Part shown: positions 42,576-46,665 of the stretch, piece by piece
Layout: each line of letters opens with the position of its first letter
Position numbering within the stretch: position 1 is the stretch's first letter
From: Oscillospiraceae bacterium
Lineage (GTDB): Bacteria > Bacillota > Clostridia > Oscillospirales > Oscillospiraceae
NCBI GenBank assembly: GCA_017395085.1
Contig: JAFPWF010000034.1
Coordinates: 62,001 to 126,000 of the forward strand
Reading direction: 5' to 3'
Length of the DNA stretch: 64,000 bases
Position numbers and translations under genes: made by a program
The notes under the pieces: generated by a model
What the model was told of the DNA's origin: nothing
Database searches by the model: none
Seen by the model: only the letters and a program-made list of their open reading frames with translations

Positions 42576-42604
42576 TTGAAAAATACCCCGGTTCGCAATA
42601 TAAT
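42576..42604 (+). promoter_or_regulatory. Promoter of the tandem hypB genes
   Basis: TTGAAA, 17 bases, TATAAT, 52 bases before hypB copy 1. It lies inside the open frame upstream of the chosen start. Confidence 0.75.
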
Positions 42605-42656
42605 GGATTCACCCTGCAGGCAATGGAACGAACAAGCTGATGAGGAGAGCCGTACC

Positions 42657-43328
42657 ATGGAACAGATTAAAATCATCGCACTGAAGGAATCGGTGCTGGC
42701 AGACAACAATGCCGACGCGCAGGCGCTGCGAGAAGAGCTGCAAAGCCGCGGAACCTGCCTGCTGAACCTGATGTCGTCCCCGGGCAGCGGAAAAACCACG
42801 ACCCTTCTCGCCCTGAACCGCGCTTTTGACGGCCGGCTTCGCTGGGGCGTCATGGAAGCCGACATTGACAGTGCCGTAGATGCGCAGACCATTCAGAATG
42901 CCGGCATTCCGGCAGTTCAGCTGCATACGGGCGGCATGTGCCATCTGGATGCAGACATGACCCGTCAGGGAATCCGCGCACTGGATTTGGACGATGCGGA
43001 ACTGATCGTACTGGAAAATATCGGCAATCTGGTCTGCCCGGCGGAGTTTGACACCGGAGCCGCCATAAATATGACGATTCTTTCCGTTCCGGAAGGCGAC
43101 GACAAGCCGGCGAAATACCCGCTGATGTATGAGACCTGCGACATTCTTGTCGTCAACAAAATCGACACTCTGCCGGTTTTTGACTTTGACAAGGCTCGGA
43201 TGGAGCGGGACGCCAAAGAGCGGAACCATGAAATTGAGATCTTCTATATCTCAGCCAAAACCGGCGAGGGCGTGCAGGCTCTGGCGGATGCGCTGGTCAG
43301 TAAGGTAAAGGAGTGGAACGCGGTATGA
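42657..43328 (+). CDS. hypB: Nickel-insertion GTPase HypB, copy 1
   Basis: A 223-residue SIMIBI-class GTPase that works with HypA to load nickel into [NiFe]-hydrogenase. The P-loop SSPGSGKTTT is at residues 40-49; the G-domain metal site is MCHLDADM (Cys95, His96); ENIGNLVCPAEFDTGA, SVPEGDDKPAKYP and VNKIDTLP are family blocks. The N-terminal Cys-rich nickel motif and His-rich stretch of some HypB proteins are absent, which is common in Clostridia. GAGGAGAG precedes the ATG; the frame is open to 42576 but a promoter lies there. It overlaps copy 2 by 4 bases. Confidence 0.92.
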   Translation: MEQIKIIALKESVLADNNADAQALREELQSRGTCLLNLMSSPGSGKTTTLLALNRAFDGRLRWGVMEADIDSAVDAQTIQNAGIPAVQLHTGGMCHLDADMTRQGIRALDLDDAELIVLENIGNLVCPAEFDTGAAINMTILSVPEGDDKPAKYPLMYETCDILVVNKIDTLPVFDFDKARMERDAKERNHEIEIFYISAKTGEGVQALADALVSKVKEWNAV

Positions 43329-43996
43329 GCGAAGTCAGAGTCATTCAGATCAACGAGTCGGTTTTTGCGGAAAATGACCGGACTGCTGAGCTGATCCGGA
43401 AACGGCTTACCGATCAGGGAACGCTGTTCCTGAATATCATGTCCTCCCCGGGGAGCGGGAAAACCACCACGCTGGTCGCGCTCATCAACCGGCTGAAAGG
43501 GCGCCTGAACATCGGTGAGATGGATGTGGATATTGAGAGCAGCCTGGACGCGCAGCGCGTGGCAGACCGAACCGGCATCCGCAGCCTGCAGATCCATAAC
43601 GGCGGACTTTGCCACATTGACGCAGACATGACCGCACGGGCGCTGCTGGAATACGACACGAAGGGACTGGATCTGCTGATTCTGGAGAACATCGGGAATC
43701 TGGTATGCCCGGCGGAATTCGACACCGGCGCGCACCGGAACGTAACTATCCTGTCTGTGCCGGAAGGAGACGACAAGCCCCTGAAGTATCCGCTGATGTA
43801 CCAGGTCAGCGATGTGGTGCTCATCAACAAGATTGATGCCATGGATTACTTTGATTTTGACCTGGAGAAAGCAAAAGAGCGCATTCTGGCACTGAACCCG
43901 AAGGCACTCTTCTTCCCCATCAGTGCGAAAACCGGTGAAGGTCTTGATGCAGTCTGCGAGTGGGTGCTCAAAGAAGTTGCTGCCGTCAAAGCCTGA
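43325..43996 (+). CDS. hypB: Nickel-insertion GTPase HypB, copy 2
   Basis: A 223-residue paralogue of the preceding gene with the same length and layout: MSSPGSGKTTT (39-49), metal site LCHIDADM (Cys96, His97), LVCPAEFDTGAHRNV, SVPEGDDKPLKYP and INKIDAMDYFDFD. It is clearly homologous but not nearly identical, so this is an old tandem duplication or two specialised forms. The ATG overlaps the copy 1 stop, so both are made together and could form a heterodimer, as SIMIBI GTPases dimerise. An in-frame GTG at 43313 is less likely. Confidence 0.92.
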   Translation: MSEVRVIQINESVFAENDRTAELIRKRLTDQGTLFLNIMSSPGSGKTTTLVALINRLKGRLNIGEMDVDIESSLDAQRVADRTGIRSLQIHNGGLCHIDADMTARALLEYDTKGLDLLILENIGNLVCPAEFDTGAHRNVTILSVPEGDDKPLKYPLMYQVSDVVLINKIDAMDYFDFDLEKAKERILALNPKALFFPISAKTGEGLDAVCEWVLKEVAAVKA

Positions 43997-44232: not shown

Positions 44233-44261
44233 TAGCCAAGAAGGTTTCCGCATGGTATAAT
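44233..44261 (+). promoter_or_regulatory. Promoter before the lysozyme-like gene
   Basis: TAGCCA, 17 bases, TATAAT (with an extended-type TGG before it), 30 bases ahead of the start codon and with GGAGG at 44281-44285. The -35 is weak. Confidence 0.55.
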
Positions 44262-44291: not shown

Positions 44292-44891
44292 ATGTTCAAG
44301 CTTTACAGCATGGAAAAAGCGAAGAGAATTGTTTCAGACCAATCAGATCTGATCGAGAGCATCTGCGCCCCATATCGTCTGCCTTCCGCCTGTCTGAAAG
44401 CAATCCTGCTGATGGAAATCCCGGAGATCGATCTGACAGACCTGTTGGTTGACACCATTGTCAGGCTTAACTGGCTCCGCTATTTTATGACTCACCGCTA
44501 TAATCCGGAGCGGCACACGCGAAATCCTCTGCGGAAATTTGACAGTTCCACCGGATACGGGCAGATTTTTTCCCGTGTTGCAATTGAGGCGATTCTTTTT
44601 GCCAGAAGCAGAGGGATCCCGGTCGACGTCGGAATAACCGGCGAACTTTCCCCTGTCCGACCGGAAGACCTGCGGCGGGTTTGGCTGCGCCTTAACCGCG
44701 AACCGGTCTTTAATCTCAAATGTTCCGCACTGAATCTCCTGCATGCCGCCTTCCAAATGACCGGCCGGGTCGATTTCGGACAATATACCGAGGAAGAGTT
44801 GAAGCTGATTTTCACGCGCTATAACGGAAATGTAAAACAAATCTCCGCTTACGGGGAAAAGGCTTACCGATACTATCTGAACTTTTTGTAA
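44292..44891 (+). CDS. Cytoplasmic protein with lysozyme/transglycosylase-like motifs
   Basis: A 199-residue protein. The order of short motifs recalls the SLT/lysozyme fold: a helix with Glu42 (AILLMEIPEID), STGYGQIFSRVAIEA at 86-100 in the place of the GxMQI strand, and TRYNGNVKQISAYGEKAYRYY at the C-terminus, where transglycosylases have AYNxG...Y. There is no signal peptide or membrane segment, so it may not reach peptidoglycan by the Sec route. GGAGG precedes the ATG. The next gene, 69 bases on, is the CARF nuclease. The assignment rests on pattern only. Confidence 0.6.
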   Translation: MFKLYSMEKAKRIVSDQSDLIESICAPYRLPSACLKAILLMEIPEIDLTDLLVDTIVRLNWLRYFMTHRYNPERHTRNPLRKFDSSTGYGQIFSRVAIEAILFARSRGIPVDVGITGELSPVRPEDLRRVWLRLNREPVFNLKCSALNLLHAAFQMTGRVDFGQYTEEELKLIFTRYNGNVKQISAYGEKAYRYYLNFL

Positions 44892-44960
44892 CCGCGACAG
44901 ATATTCCGGACTGGTTTAACGGGATACTTCTGCTGCCCAGGAAAGCCGGAGGGAAACAAT

Positions 44961-46136
44961 GTGGAAACGCTGATTGAACTGTATGACGAGCGGCCGCTGG
45001 AAAACGTGCTCGGAGTGGAGATGTTCCGCCCTGAACGCGTGGTTTACGTTTGTCCGGACCGGATCGCTTCCAACAATACCATTCAACATAAGCTCCGGCA
45101 GTATTTTCTGCATCGCGGGTTGAAAGTGGAGCTTATTTTCCTGCGCGCCCAGGTTTATGATTCCTATGCCATGCGGAATCTGTTTCAAAAGACCGTGGCG
45201 CGGTACCCGGACTGTGCCATCGACATTACCGGCGGAACCGACGCCGTGCTGTTCGCCGCAGGACTCCTCTGCGCAGAGACAGAAATTCCGGTTTTTACCT
45301 ACAGCCGAAGGAAAAACCGCTTTTATGATATCCGGAACGCTTCTTTCGCAGCAAATCTCCCCTGTTGCCTGTCCTACAGCGTGGAAGACTGTTTTCTGAT
45401 GGCAGGCGGCTCCATGCGGACCGGGCGGGTAGACAACGCCATTCTTTCCCGGTACCTGGATGATATCGAGCCGTTTTTCCGGATCTACCTGGAGCATCGC
45501 CGTCAATGGGTAAAAATCGTCACATACATGCAACGCATCTCCGCCGGAAACGCTGACGGATCCATCCCGCTTTCCGTATCCGGAAAATACACCGTAAAGG
45601 GGGAGCAGTCTTCCCGGATCAGCGCCCCCGAAGATACTCTCCGTCAATTCGAGGACCTTGGTTTTATCCATGATCTTTCCATCGTTCCCGAAGAATCCGT
45701 TTCCTTTCACTTTCGTGATGCGCAGGTGCGTTCCTGGCTGCGGGATGTCGGGAGCGTGTTGGAACTCTATGTCTACAAAACCTGTCTGGACACCGGTCTG
45801 TTTCAGGACGTGATCACCAGTGCCGTTGTCGACTGGGATGGCAGCAGCGGCCGCAATGCCGTTACCAATGAACTTGACGTTATGTGCACCCGCGGCATCA
45901 CCCCGCTGTTTATCAGCTGCAAAACCTGTGACGCCAGGACCGAAGCGCTGAATGAACTGGCGATCCTGAGGGACCGGTTCGGAGGGAGAATTGCACGTGC
46001 GGCGATCGTGACCGCTGAAAAGGGAGGCATTGCCCTGAGAAACCGCGCCGCTGAACTCGGTATCACTGTCATTGATATCAACGACCTTGTCAACAACAGA
46101 ACGGAAAAGCGGATCCGCAACCTCGTGAAGGACTGA
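44961..46136 (+). CDS. Card1-like CARF-domain nuclease (DUF1887)
   Basis: A 391-residue protein. The N-terminal half (1-140) is a CARF-type Rossmann domain: VVYVCPDRI, then DITGGTDAVLFAAGLL with the GGTDA ligand loop at 91-95. A linker/winged region (about 170-260) follows, then a PD-(D/E)xK nuclease: Glu268 (LELYVYK), Glu304 and Asp306 (NELDVMC), and Lys321 (FISCKT). In Card1/Can2 proteins, cyclic tetra-adenylate bound by CARF switches on DNA and RNA cutting. No cas gene or array is visible. The start is GTG after GGAGGG; a nearby ATG in another frame stops at once. It ends 4 bases before the alkyltransferase gene. Confidence 0.82.
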   Translation: METLIELYDERPLENVLGVEMFRPERVVYVCPDRIASNNTIQHKLRQYFLHRGLKVELIFLRAQVYDSYAMRNLFQKTVARYPDCAIDITGGTDAVLFAAGLLCAETEIPVFTYSRRKNRFYDIRNASFAANLPCCLSYSVEDCFLMAGGSMRTGRVDNAILSRYLDDIEPFFRIYLEHRRQWVKIVTYMQRISAGNADGSIPLSVSGKYTVKGEQSSRISAPEDTLRQFEDLGFIHDLSIVPEESVSFHFRDAQVRSWLRDVGSVLELYVYKTCLDTGLFQDVITSAVVDWDGSSGRNAVTNELDVMCTRGITPLFISCKTCDARTEALNELAILRDRFGGRIARAAIVTAEKGGIALRNRAAELGITVIDINDLVNNRTEKRIRNLVKD

Positions 46137-46140
46137 GAAC

Positions 46141-46665
46141 ATGAACTATATCACACATTACCGATCCCCTTTCGGCGGCATTACACTTGCCTGCGACGGG
46201 GAAGCTCTCACAGGCCTCTGGTTTGACGGGCAGAAGTATTTCGGCCGTACGCTGGAAAAGGATTACGTGGAAAGGAAGCTCCCCATTCTCGAAGAAACTG
46301 TTTCCTGGCTGAATCAATACTTCAACGGCAGAGATCCCGGGTTTTCCCCAAAGCTGAATCCGCACGGCACTCCATTCCAAAAATCGGTCTGGGATGTTTT
46401 GCTTTCCGTTCCTTACGGGAAAATCATCACTTACGGGCAGATTGCGGAAAGTATCGCTTCTCAGATGAATCTGGAGCGGATGTCTGCCCAGGCTGTCGGC
46501 GGCGCGGTCGGGCGCAATCCGATTTCGCTGATTATTCCGTGTCACCGGGTCATCGGAGCAGACGGCAGCCTGACCGGTTATGCCGGCGGCATTGACAGAA
46601 AGCTCCTACTCCTGCAGCTGGAGCAGGCTGAGACTGACAGGTTTCATTTGCCGAAAGTCCGATGA
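46141..46665 (+). CDS. ogt: Methylated-DNA-protein-cysteine methyltransferase
   Basis: A 174-residue suicide repair protein that takes alkyl groups from O6-alkylguanine. The active site is IIPCHRV with Cys134; the helix-turn-helix region is TPFQKSVWDVLLSVPYGKIITYGQIAE, and the arginine finger is in NLERMSAQAVGGAVGRNP. The N-terminal domain is of the short ribonuclease-like type. It starts 4 bases after the CARF nuclease stop, so the two are probably translated together, an unexpected pairing. Confidence 0.95.
   Translation: MNYITHYRSPFGGITLACDGEALTGLWFDGQKYFGRTLEKDYVERKLPILEETVSWLNQYFNGRDPGFSPKLNPHGTPFQKSVWDVLLSVPYGKIITYGQIAESIASQMNLERMSAQAVGGAVGRNPISLIIPCHRVIGADGSLTGYAGGIDRKLLLLQLEQAETDRFHLPKVR

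Follow-up and report, generated by a model that had tools for sequence, protein, structure and literature searches.

A solitary CARF–PD-(D/E)xK nuclease of gut and rumen Oscillospiraceae-like bacteria may sense a ligand other than cA4 without Cas10

Known CARF nucleases and the gene in the window

In most accounts, CARF domains are receptors of cyclic oligoadenylates. NucC and the Cap-type nucleases of CBASS are switched by cyclic nucleotides outside CRISPR and are paired with a CD-NTase. Can2 and Card1 (CARF4; PDB 7BDV, 6WXW/6XL1, 8Q3Z, and 8BAO) are effectors of type III CRISPR systems, and the cA4 contacts common to Can1 and Can2 are Ser19, Thr42, Lys99, and Tyr118 (PMC7969007). Cdn1 (PDB 9U49 and 8Z4I) belongs to a III-B locus, is activated by cA4 and cA6, and retains Thr9, Lys104, and Tyr124 (PMC12825302). 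The residues named for Cdn1 in that report also include Thr37, and we equate the four with the contact set of Can2. The orphan CARF nuclease VC1899 of Vibrio cholerae (DUF1887, PDB 1XMX) has Asp, Asp, Arg, and Val at the four positions, is not regulated by cA4, and has been suggested to be possibly degenerate (PMC7969007). A further comparison is offered by RtcR, a transcription activator with AAA+ and HTH domains and no nuclease. Its CARF domain operates outside CRISPR and, in a likeness to the clade described here, the RtcR and RV2818 CARF families mostly lack a basic residue after strand 4; they might bind distinct ligands (PMC4012209). The same survey notes that every CARF family has members unlinked to CRISPR-Cas, some of those from the VC1899 family lying in other gene clusters. 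Therefore, orphan status alone is not new. No published report of the present clade was found in the part of the literature that was covered.

The window is the whole 64,000-nt stretch of DNA that was analysed, from an Oscillospiraceae bacterium (GCA_017395085.1, JAFPWF010000034.1 positions 62,001–126,000, forward strand). The gene under study and its two domains are located as follows.

44961..46136, plus strand: DUF1887 CARF nuclease with the Card1/Can2 fold, 391 residues, GTG start, stop codon included
44961..45380, plus strand: CARF domain, approximately residues 1–140 (boundary approximate)
45750..46100, plus strand: PD-(D/E)xK nuclease domain, residues 264–380 (range of Pfam PF09002), with Glu268, Glu304, Asp306, and Lys321

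The Card1-like endonuclease domain PF09002 scores 34.3 bits against a curated cut-off of 26.4. The predicted model of the protein (pLDDT 92.8) has a CARF fold joined N-terminally to the PD-(D/E)xK domain, and its whole chain matches 1XMX, 7BDV, 9U49, and 6XL1, with VC1899 (1XMX) as the best match in the PDB; matches limited to the CARF domain cover approximately residues 1–130 of the model. The first-pass annotation had claimed a CARF domain and a PD-(D/E)xK core, to be given up if a structure prediction lacked the nuclease core. The profile score and the predicted fold, in which both domains are retained, bear the claim out and confirm the gene as a real member of the DUF1887/PF09002 superfamily. 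Antisense to the gene lies a 408-residue open frame (window 44916–46142, minus strand), which is longer than the gene itself and probably reflects codon bias.

Ligand pocket and nuclease centre

The residues that occupy the ligand pocket of the CARF domain are encoded at the following positions.

44985..44987, plus strand: codon of Asp9, at the position of the cA4 contact Ser19 of Can2; Asp in 72 of 72 close orthologs and 120 of 120 metagenomic homologs
45231..45245, plus strand: GGTDA loop, residues 91–95, with Asp94 at the position of Can2 Lys99
45297..45308, plus strand: residues 113–116, with conserved Thr113, Ser115, and Arg116 at the positions of Can2 Tyr118, Asp120, and Ser121

Conservation was assessed in an alignment of 84 sequences, comprising 72 close orthologs and 12 distant homologs. 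Three longer proteins (from loci L169, L170, and L185) were left out of it, and neither the fragmentary genus orthologs of genomes G011, G033, G034, and G097 nor the family members in G188, G390, and G409 were taken in. Two of the longer proteins, L169:6018-10253(-) in G120 and L170:2069-6244(+) in G156, have about 1400 residues; a protein-kinase match lies close to the N-terminus, and the C-terminus matches the Card1-like endonuclease weakly, slightly below the cut-off.

In a HMMER alignment, Ser19, Lys99, Tyr118, and Ser121 of Can2 correspond to Asp9, Asp94, Thr113, and Arg116, and Thr42 to Pro32; these equivalences are those of a profile alignment at about 15% identity. The Ser/Thr-Thr-Lys-Tyr set published for Can1 and Can2 is thus absent from the aligned positions, where Asp9, Pro32, Asp94, and Thr113 stand instead. 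It had been asked whether the cA4-binding residues of Card1 and Can2 are kept: all four contact positions of Can2 are replaced. The replacements are nearly uniform among the 72 close orthologs, with Asp9, Thr113, and Ser115 in all, Asp94 in 71 (Glu in one), Arg116 in 69, and Pro32 in 58. The best 120 of 2932 metagenomic homologs show the same pattern (Asp9, Thr113, and Ser115 in 120, Asp94 in 119 with Asn in one, Arg116 in 118, and Pro32 in 115). Position 94 is acidic (Asp or Glu) in each of the 12 distant homologs, but Asp9 is present in only 7 of them and Thr113 in none. Therefore, the full pocket set marks the close clade. Judged by the sequences, the change of the pocket is a substitution by a fixed new residue set and not decay. 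The replacement of Ser121 by Arg116 may offset that of Lys by Asp and restore the positive charge elsewhere, so that an anionic ligand, including a cyclic nucleotide, could still be accommodated.

The GGTDA sequence had been described as a CARF ligand loop. The loop is present, yet it carries Asp94 where Can2 has Lys99, and Card1 and 8BAO read GGTK where the window nuclease reads GGTD. VC1899 has Arg96 and no GGT motif. The clade resembles this orphan in being a DUF1887 protein with no type III system in the genome and Asp at the Ser19 position; however, the Arg of VC1899 at the Lys99 position is found in none of the 72 close or 12 distant sequences. A DUF1887 CARF protein without the GGTD motif is also encoded on the Peptoclostridium acidaminophilum plasmid NZ_CP007453.1 (L288:11596-12753), where the incomplete gene table lists no cas gene in the 24.7 kb around it.

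The nuclease shares domain order, fold, and nuclease residues with Can2 and Card1. The catalytic core that had been named in the first annotation, a Glu-Glu-Asp-Lys centre of the Can2/Card1 type formed by the four residues given above, is invariant in 84 of the 84 aligned sequences and in all of the best 120 of 2932 metagenomic homologs. Orthologs within the genus are 50–74% identical, and dN/dS is 0.06–0.17 in 11 of 11 pairs closer than 16% protein distance. The purifying selection together with the invariant catalytic residues indicates that the nuclease is in use.

Cas10, Cas1, and other signal makers in genomes with the nuclease

The genome from which the window comes is a draft of 2.52 Mb in 86 contigs with a completeness of 84.5%. 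A search of it for cas10, csm, and cmr genes, as the first annotation had proposed, gives no match to the Cas10 palm (PF22335) or RAMP models, and none to Cas1 or SMODS CD-NTases. Absence from a draft is weak evidence, and the whole genus was therefore examined. The genus set contains 102 draft genomes (MAGs), in each of which a single absence likewise weighs little, and an ortholog of the nuclease is matched in 55 of them, and in 18 of the 34 genomes of best quality. The search for signal makers and CRISPR markers covered four families, PF22335, PF03787, PF01867, and PF18144.

Matches to PF22335 occur in 10 of the 102 genomes, and one protein was fetched from each; outside these ten, there is one more match in G068, which lacks the nuclease, and two more in G026. 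The ten proteins comprise one Cas10a (G084), two Cas10d-like proteins (G022 and G026), and seven whose GGDEF/GGEE motif marks them, in our reading, as GGDEF proteins. Several carriers of the nuclease contain GGDEF proteins. The Cas10a of G084 has Csm1_B, palm, and Cmr2 helical domains. Its genome has three RAMP matches, the only ones among the 102 genomes, and this single ordinary type III locus of the genus set is in a non-carrier. A search with the Cas10d-like protein of G026 finds it in G022 and G026 alone (2 of 102), both of which are carriers. With the palm model and the Cas10d-like query together, no Cas10 is detected in 53 of the 55 carriers, or in 17 of the 18 carriers of high quality; a very divergent Cas10 may escape the single palm model. 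The type III CRISPR system that accompanies Can2 and Card1 is thus not detected in the draft genome of the window or in 53 of 55 carriers. Since neither the cA4-contact set nor a Cas10 in the genome was found, the nuclease is not classed as a type III ancillary effector.

In the two exceptions, the Cas10d-like gene (GGDD/AGDD) lies in a compact set with a gene for a Csx10/Cas5-III-D-like protein of 580–588 residues and a Csx19-like gene (G026, L181:4753-8514; G022, L182:3322-6996). Neither genome has a PF03787 RAMP or Cas1 match, and the set is perhaps a reduced III-D-like system. Both nucleases belong to the 72 close orthologs, and position 94 is acidic there too.

Cas1 matches are found in eight of the 102 genomes, all of them non-carriers. 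Consequently, no genome was seen to have both ortholog and Cas1 (0 of 55 carriers vs 8 of 47 non-carriers, Fisher p 0.0014, kinship ignored). Five of the eight Cas1 genomes fall within one ortholog-free group of the aspS tree, which covers 90 of the 102 genomes, so that the exclusion is partly a one-clade effect. A CD-NTase of the SMODS family, the one family searched for a CBASS partner, is matched in three of the 102 genomes; one of these is a carrier (1 of 55), in contrast to the pairing of NucC and Cap-type nucleases with a CD-NTase.

A wider family sample comprises 350 genomes from 106 genera, 44 of which have a match to the nuclease; 27 of the matches are close orthologs (bits over 350), five of them from the genus itself. 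Among the matches listed, a Cas10 palm at E ≤ 1e-5 is present in 22 of the 350 genomes, in none of the 27 with a close ortholog, and in G107 and G390, two of the 17 carriers of a distant one. The first impression that there was no CRISPR in sight therefore holds beyond the window, as no Cas10 is detected in 53 of 55 genus carriers and no Cas1 in any of the 55. With 53 of 55 and 27 of 27 carriers lacking a detected Cas10, the proposed supply of the signal by a Cas10 elsewhere in the genome is unlikely, and the Cas10 independence of the nuclease is well supported.

The presence of the ortholog changes 19 times on the aspS tree, compared with 30.4 (minimum 23) in shuffles. Gene distances correlate weakly with aspS distances (r 0.19; 15 of 999 permutations reach this value), and the host tree built from aspS alone is doubtful because aspS may itself have been replaced. 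The nuclease genes of G044 and G043 are 7% apart, yet the two genomes lie in different deep aspS clades. The genome of the window holds a second, 51% identical aspS-like gene (G000:C52:61840-63573).

Gene neighbourhoods and readings of the nuclease

The nuclease gene lies between two co-directional genes, with gaps of 69 and 4 nt.

44233..44261, plus strand: extended -10 sigma-70-like site, a consensus match only, ending 30 nt before the lysozyme-fold gene
44292..44891, plus strand: lysozyme-fold protein, 199 residues, no Pfam family; the transcript may begin with this gene
46141..46665, plus strand: ogt, O6-alkylguanine-DNA alkyltransferase, 174 residues; next gene, probably an incidental neighbour

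Two adjoining CobW/HypB-type GTPase genes are located further upstream (window 42576–43996). Four extended -10 sites are found in the region, where 1.9 are expected. Just before the nuclease gene, the -10-like words GTATAAT and ATTATAC occur in 9 and 11 of the 72 upstream regions, compared with a maximum of 7 for any word in mononucleotide shuffles. This fits promoters near the gene; A-rich words are equally enriched.

A coupling of the nuclease to DNA repair had been proposed from the adjacent ogt. However, ogt is present in 93 of the 102 genus genomes, and among 85 other neighbourhoods fetched (3 to 15 kb each), it stands beside the nuclease in none. For the LexA box, which we take to have the consensus GAAC-N4-GTTC, no exact copy is found upstream of the nuclease in 72 loci, and 2 of 72 have a copy with one mismatch, compared with 7.0 expected in mononucleotide shuffles. 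The coupling is unsupported on these three counts, and regulation as a LexA/SOS DNA-damage unit was rejected on the lack of an exact box.

Partner genes were sought by clustering the neighbourhoods of 40 orthologs and the window, and then 87 loci. The families that recur (cystathionine-lyase-like, RecG, VWA/CobT-like, PHP, and chromate-transporter genes) do so, in our reading, mainly in loci of shared ancestry, and a conserved partner was rejected because none was seen to recur across unrelated neighbourhoods. Of the 159 genes called as immediate neighbours (on the same strand, less than 150 nt away), 59 were scanned, with a Pfam view of the first 25 of 100 families, and most of these 59 resemble housekeeping genes; the lists are incomplete, since many loci are short and the gene caller missed the ogt of the window and an MGMT-fold gene at L079. 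PADLOC at E ≤ 1e-10 gives two members each for Cas3-type models, which are probably RecG helicases, and PbeA, and one each for SngA (E 2.8e-79), mad2, and pVip; no other defence gene is repeated among the 59 neighbours. In a control with aspS, hisS adjoins in 28 of 29 relatives and htrA, which flanks aspS on the other side in the window, in none of the 29. As an operon pair is kept while other gene order is lost, the absence of any constant neighbour speaks against an operon partner and not for mobility. At L064:6506-7060(+) in G025, a LigT/2H phosphoesterase gene overlaps the start of the nuclease. Some 2H enzymes cleave cyclic oligonucleotides.

These neighbourhoods bear on the possibility that the CARF domain binds a partner protein or an RNA end, as that of RtcR does with RtcA/RtcB, and that the nuclease acts in RNA or DNA processing or repair. 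The CARF domain of RtcR binds RtcAB (PMC9650030) and, as noted above for the RtcR and RV2818 families, mostly lacks the basic residue after strand 4; the housekeeping character of the scanned neighbours also agrees with such a role. An MGMT-fold gene touches the nuclease gene twice, in the window and at L079:8167-8490(-) in G042, where the 107-residue protein (Pfam DNA_binding_1, PCFRV motif) is shorter than, and distinct from, the ogt of the window and overlaps the nuclease start. However, no partner was seen to accompany the nuclease from one unrelated locus to another, and 47 of the 102 genomes have no match, which indicates that it is not essential housekeeping. This role is unlikely.

It is hard to maintain that the protein is still a receptor for cyclic oligoadenylate, with the signal made in trans by a type III system that resides on a mobile element, in some strains of the species, or in an invader, and we regard this as improbable. 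An infecting element could bring cyclic oligoadenylate into cells that lack Cas10, the architecture of CARF domain and nuclease is retained, Arg116 could provide a substitute positive charge, and two carriers have the Cas10d-Csx10-like-Csx19 operon. Those two are the only ones of 55, however, with none among the 27 close-ortholog family genomes, and every one of the four Can2 contact positions is replaced. Searches of viral contigs (with one short pattern), plasmids, and phages gave no relative of the nuclease at the sensitivity used.

That the lysozyme-fold, nuclease, and ogt genes form a single stress- or lysis-sensing operon is very doubtful, for all their common direction and short gaps. 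The lysozyme-like fold of the upstream protein, which had been called cytoplasmic, is confirmed, and no signal peptide was seen in it; its family has 30 invariant columns in 33 sequences. Between its 86 homologs and the best 120 of the 2932 nuclease homologs, there are six cases of longest contigs equal in size, compared with 0.6 expected by jittering and at most 5 in 2000 trials, although a contig of 1722 nt, counted among the six, could not hold both genes whole. Linkage in close relatives is therefore likely, with the two genes perhaps adjacent. Against a three-gene unit stand the small size of the family (86 vs 2932 homologs) and the 85 other neighbourhoods surveyed for the same neighbours: a lysozyme-fold gene is present in one, about 6 kb away (L076), and a true ogt in none.

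A decayed relic, the published view of the structurally nearest protein VC1899 (PMC7969007), is highly improbable in the face of low dN/dS, an invariant catalytic centre, and a new pocket that is uniform both across genus orthologs of 50–74% identity and among the best 120 of 2932 metagenomic homologs.

The nuclease is not a Cas10 effector of the ordinary kind, and it is not a decayed relic either. On balance, we favour a solitary CARF–PD-(D/E)xK nuclease of the DUF1887 family, from a gut and rumen Oscillospiraceae-like clade, that is independent of Cas10 and senses a ligand other than cA4. The lack of Cas10 and the replaced cA4 contacts make another molecule the most likely ligand. The earlier suggestion that this branch listens to another nucleotide gains weight from the replaced and conserved pocket, as far as we infer a ligand from it. 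By analogy with Can2, Card1, and Cdn1, the protein would be a homodimer that holds its ligand between two CARF domains, and binding would clamp both nuclease domains onto DNA or RNA. The least certain steps are that the trigger would be another small molecule, an RNA end, or a protein arising under stress or infection, and that the gene would be a one-gene sensor-plus-effector unit. More tentatively, it may be an immune or stress sensor-effector with a pocket remodelled for a ligand that is not a cyclic oligoadenylate and is made or exposed without Cas10 or CD-NTase. Roughly every second genome of this large genus from rumen and gut carries it, and none of these has a Cas1 match.

A 2014 survey counted only 9 of 145 complete CARF-bearing genomes with neither cas1 nor cas10 (PMC4012209), compared with 53 of 55 draft carrier genomes that show neither Cas1 nor Cas10 here. 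Published discussion treats VC1899 as a lone and possibly degenerate protein; the present clade is conserved, being matched in 55 genomes of a single genus, and argues against degeneration of that kind as a general rule for orphans. An intact nuclease with a uniformly different pocket in a conserved clade moves orphan CARF nucleases from presumed relics to a testable class, and the clade offers a possible route to a new nucleotide or non-nucleotide signal.
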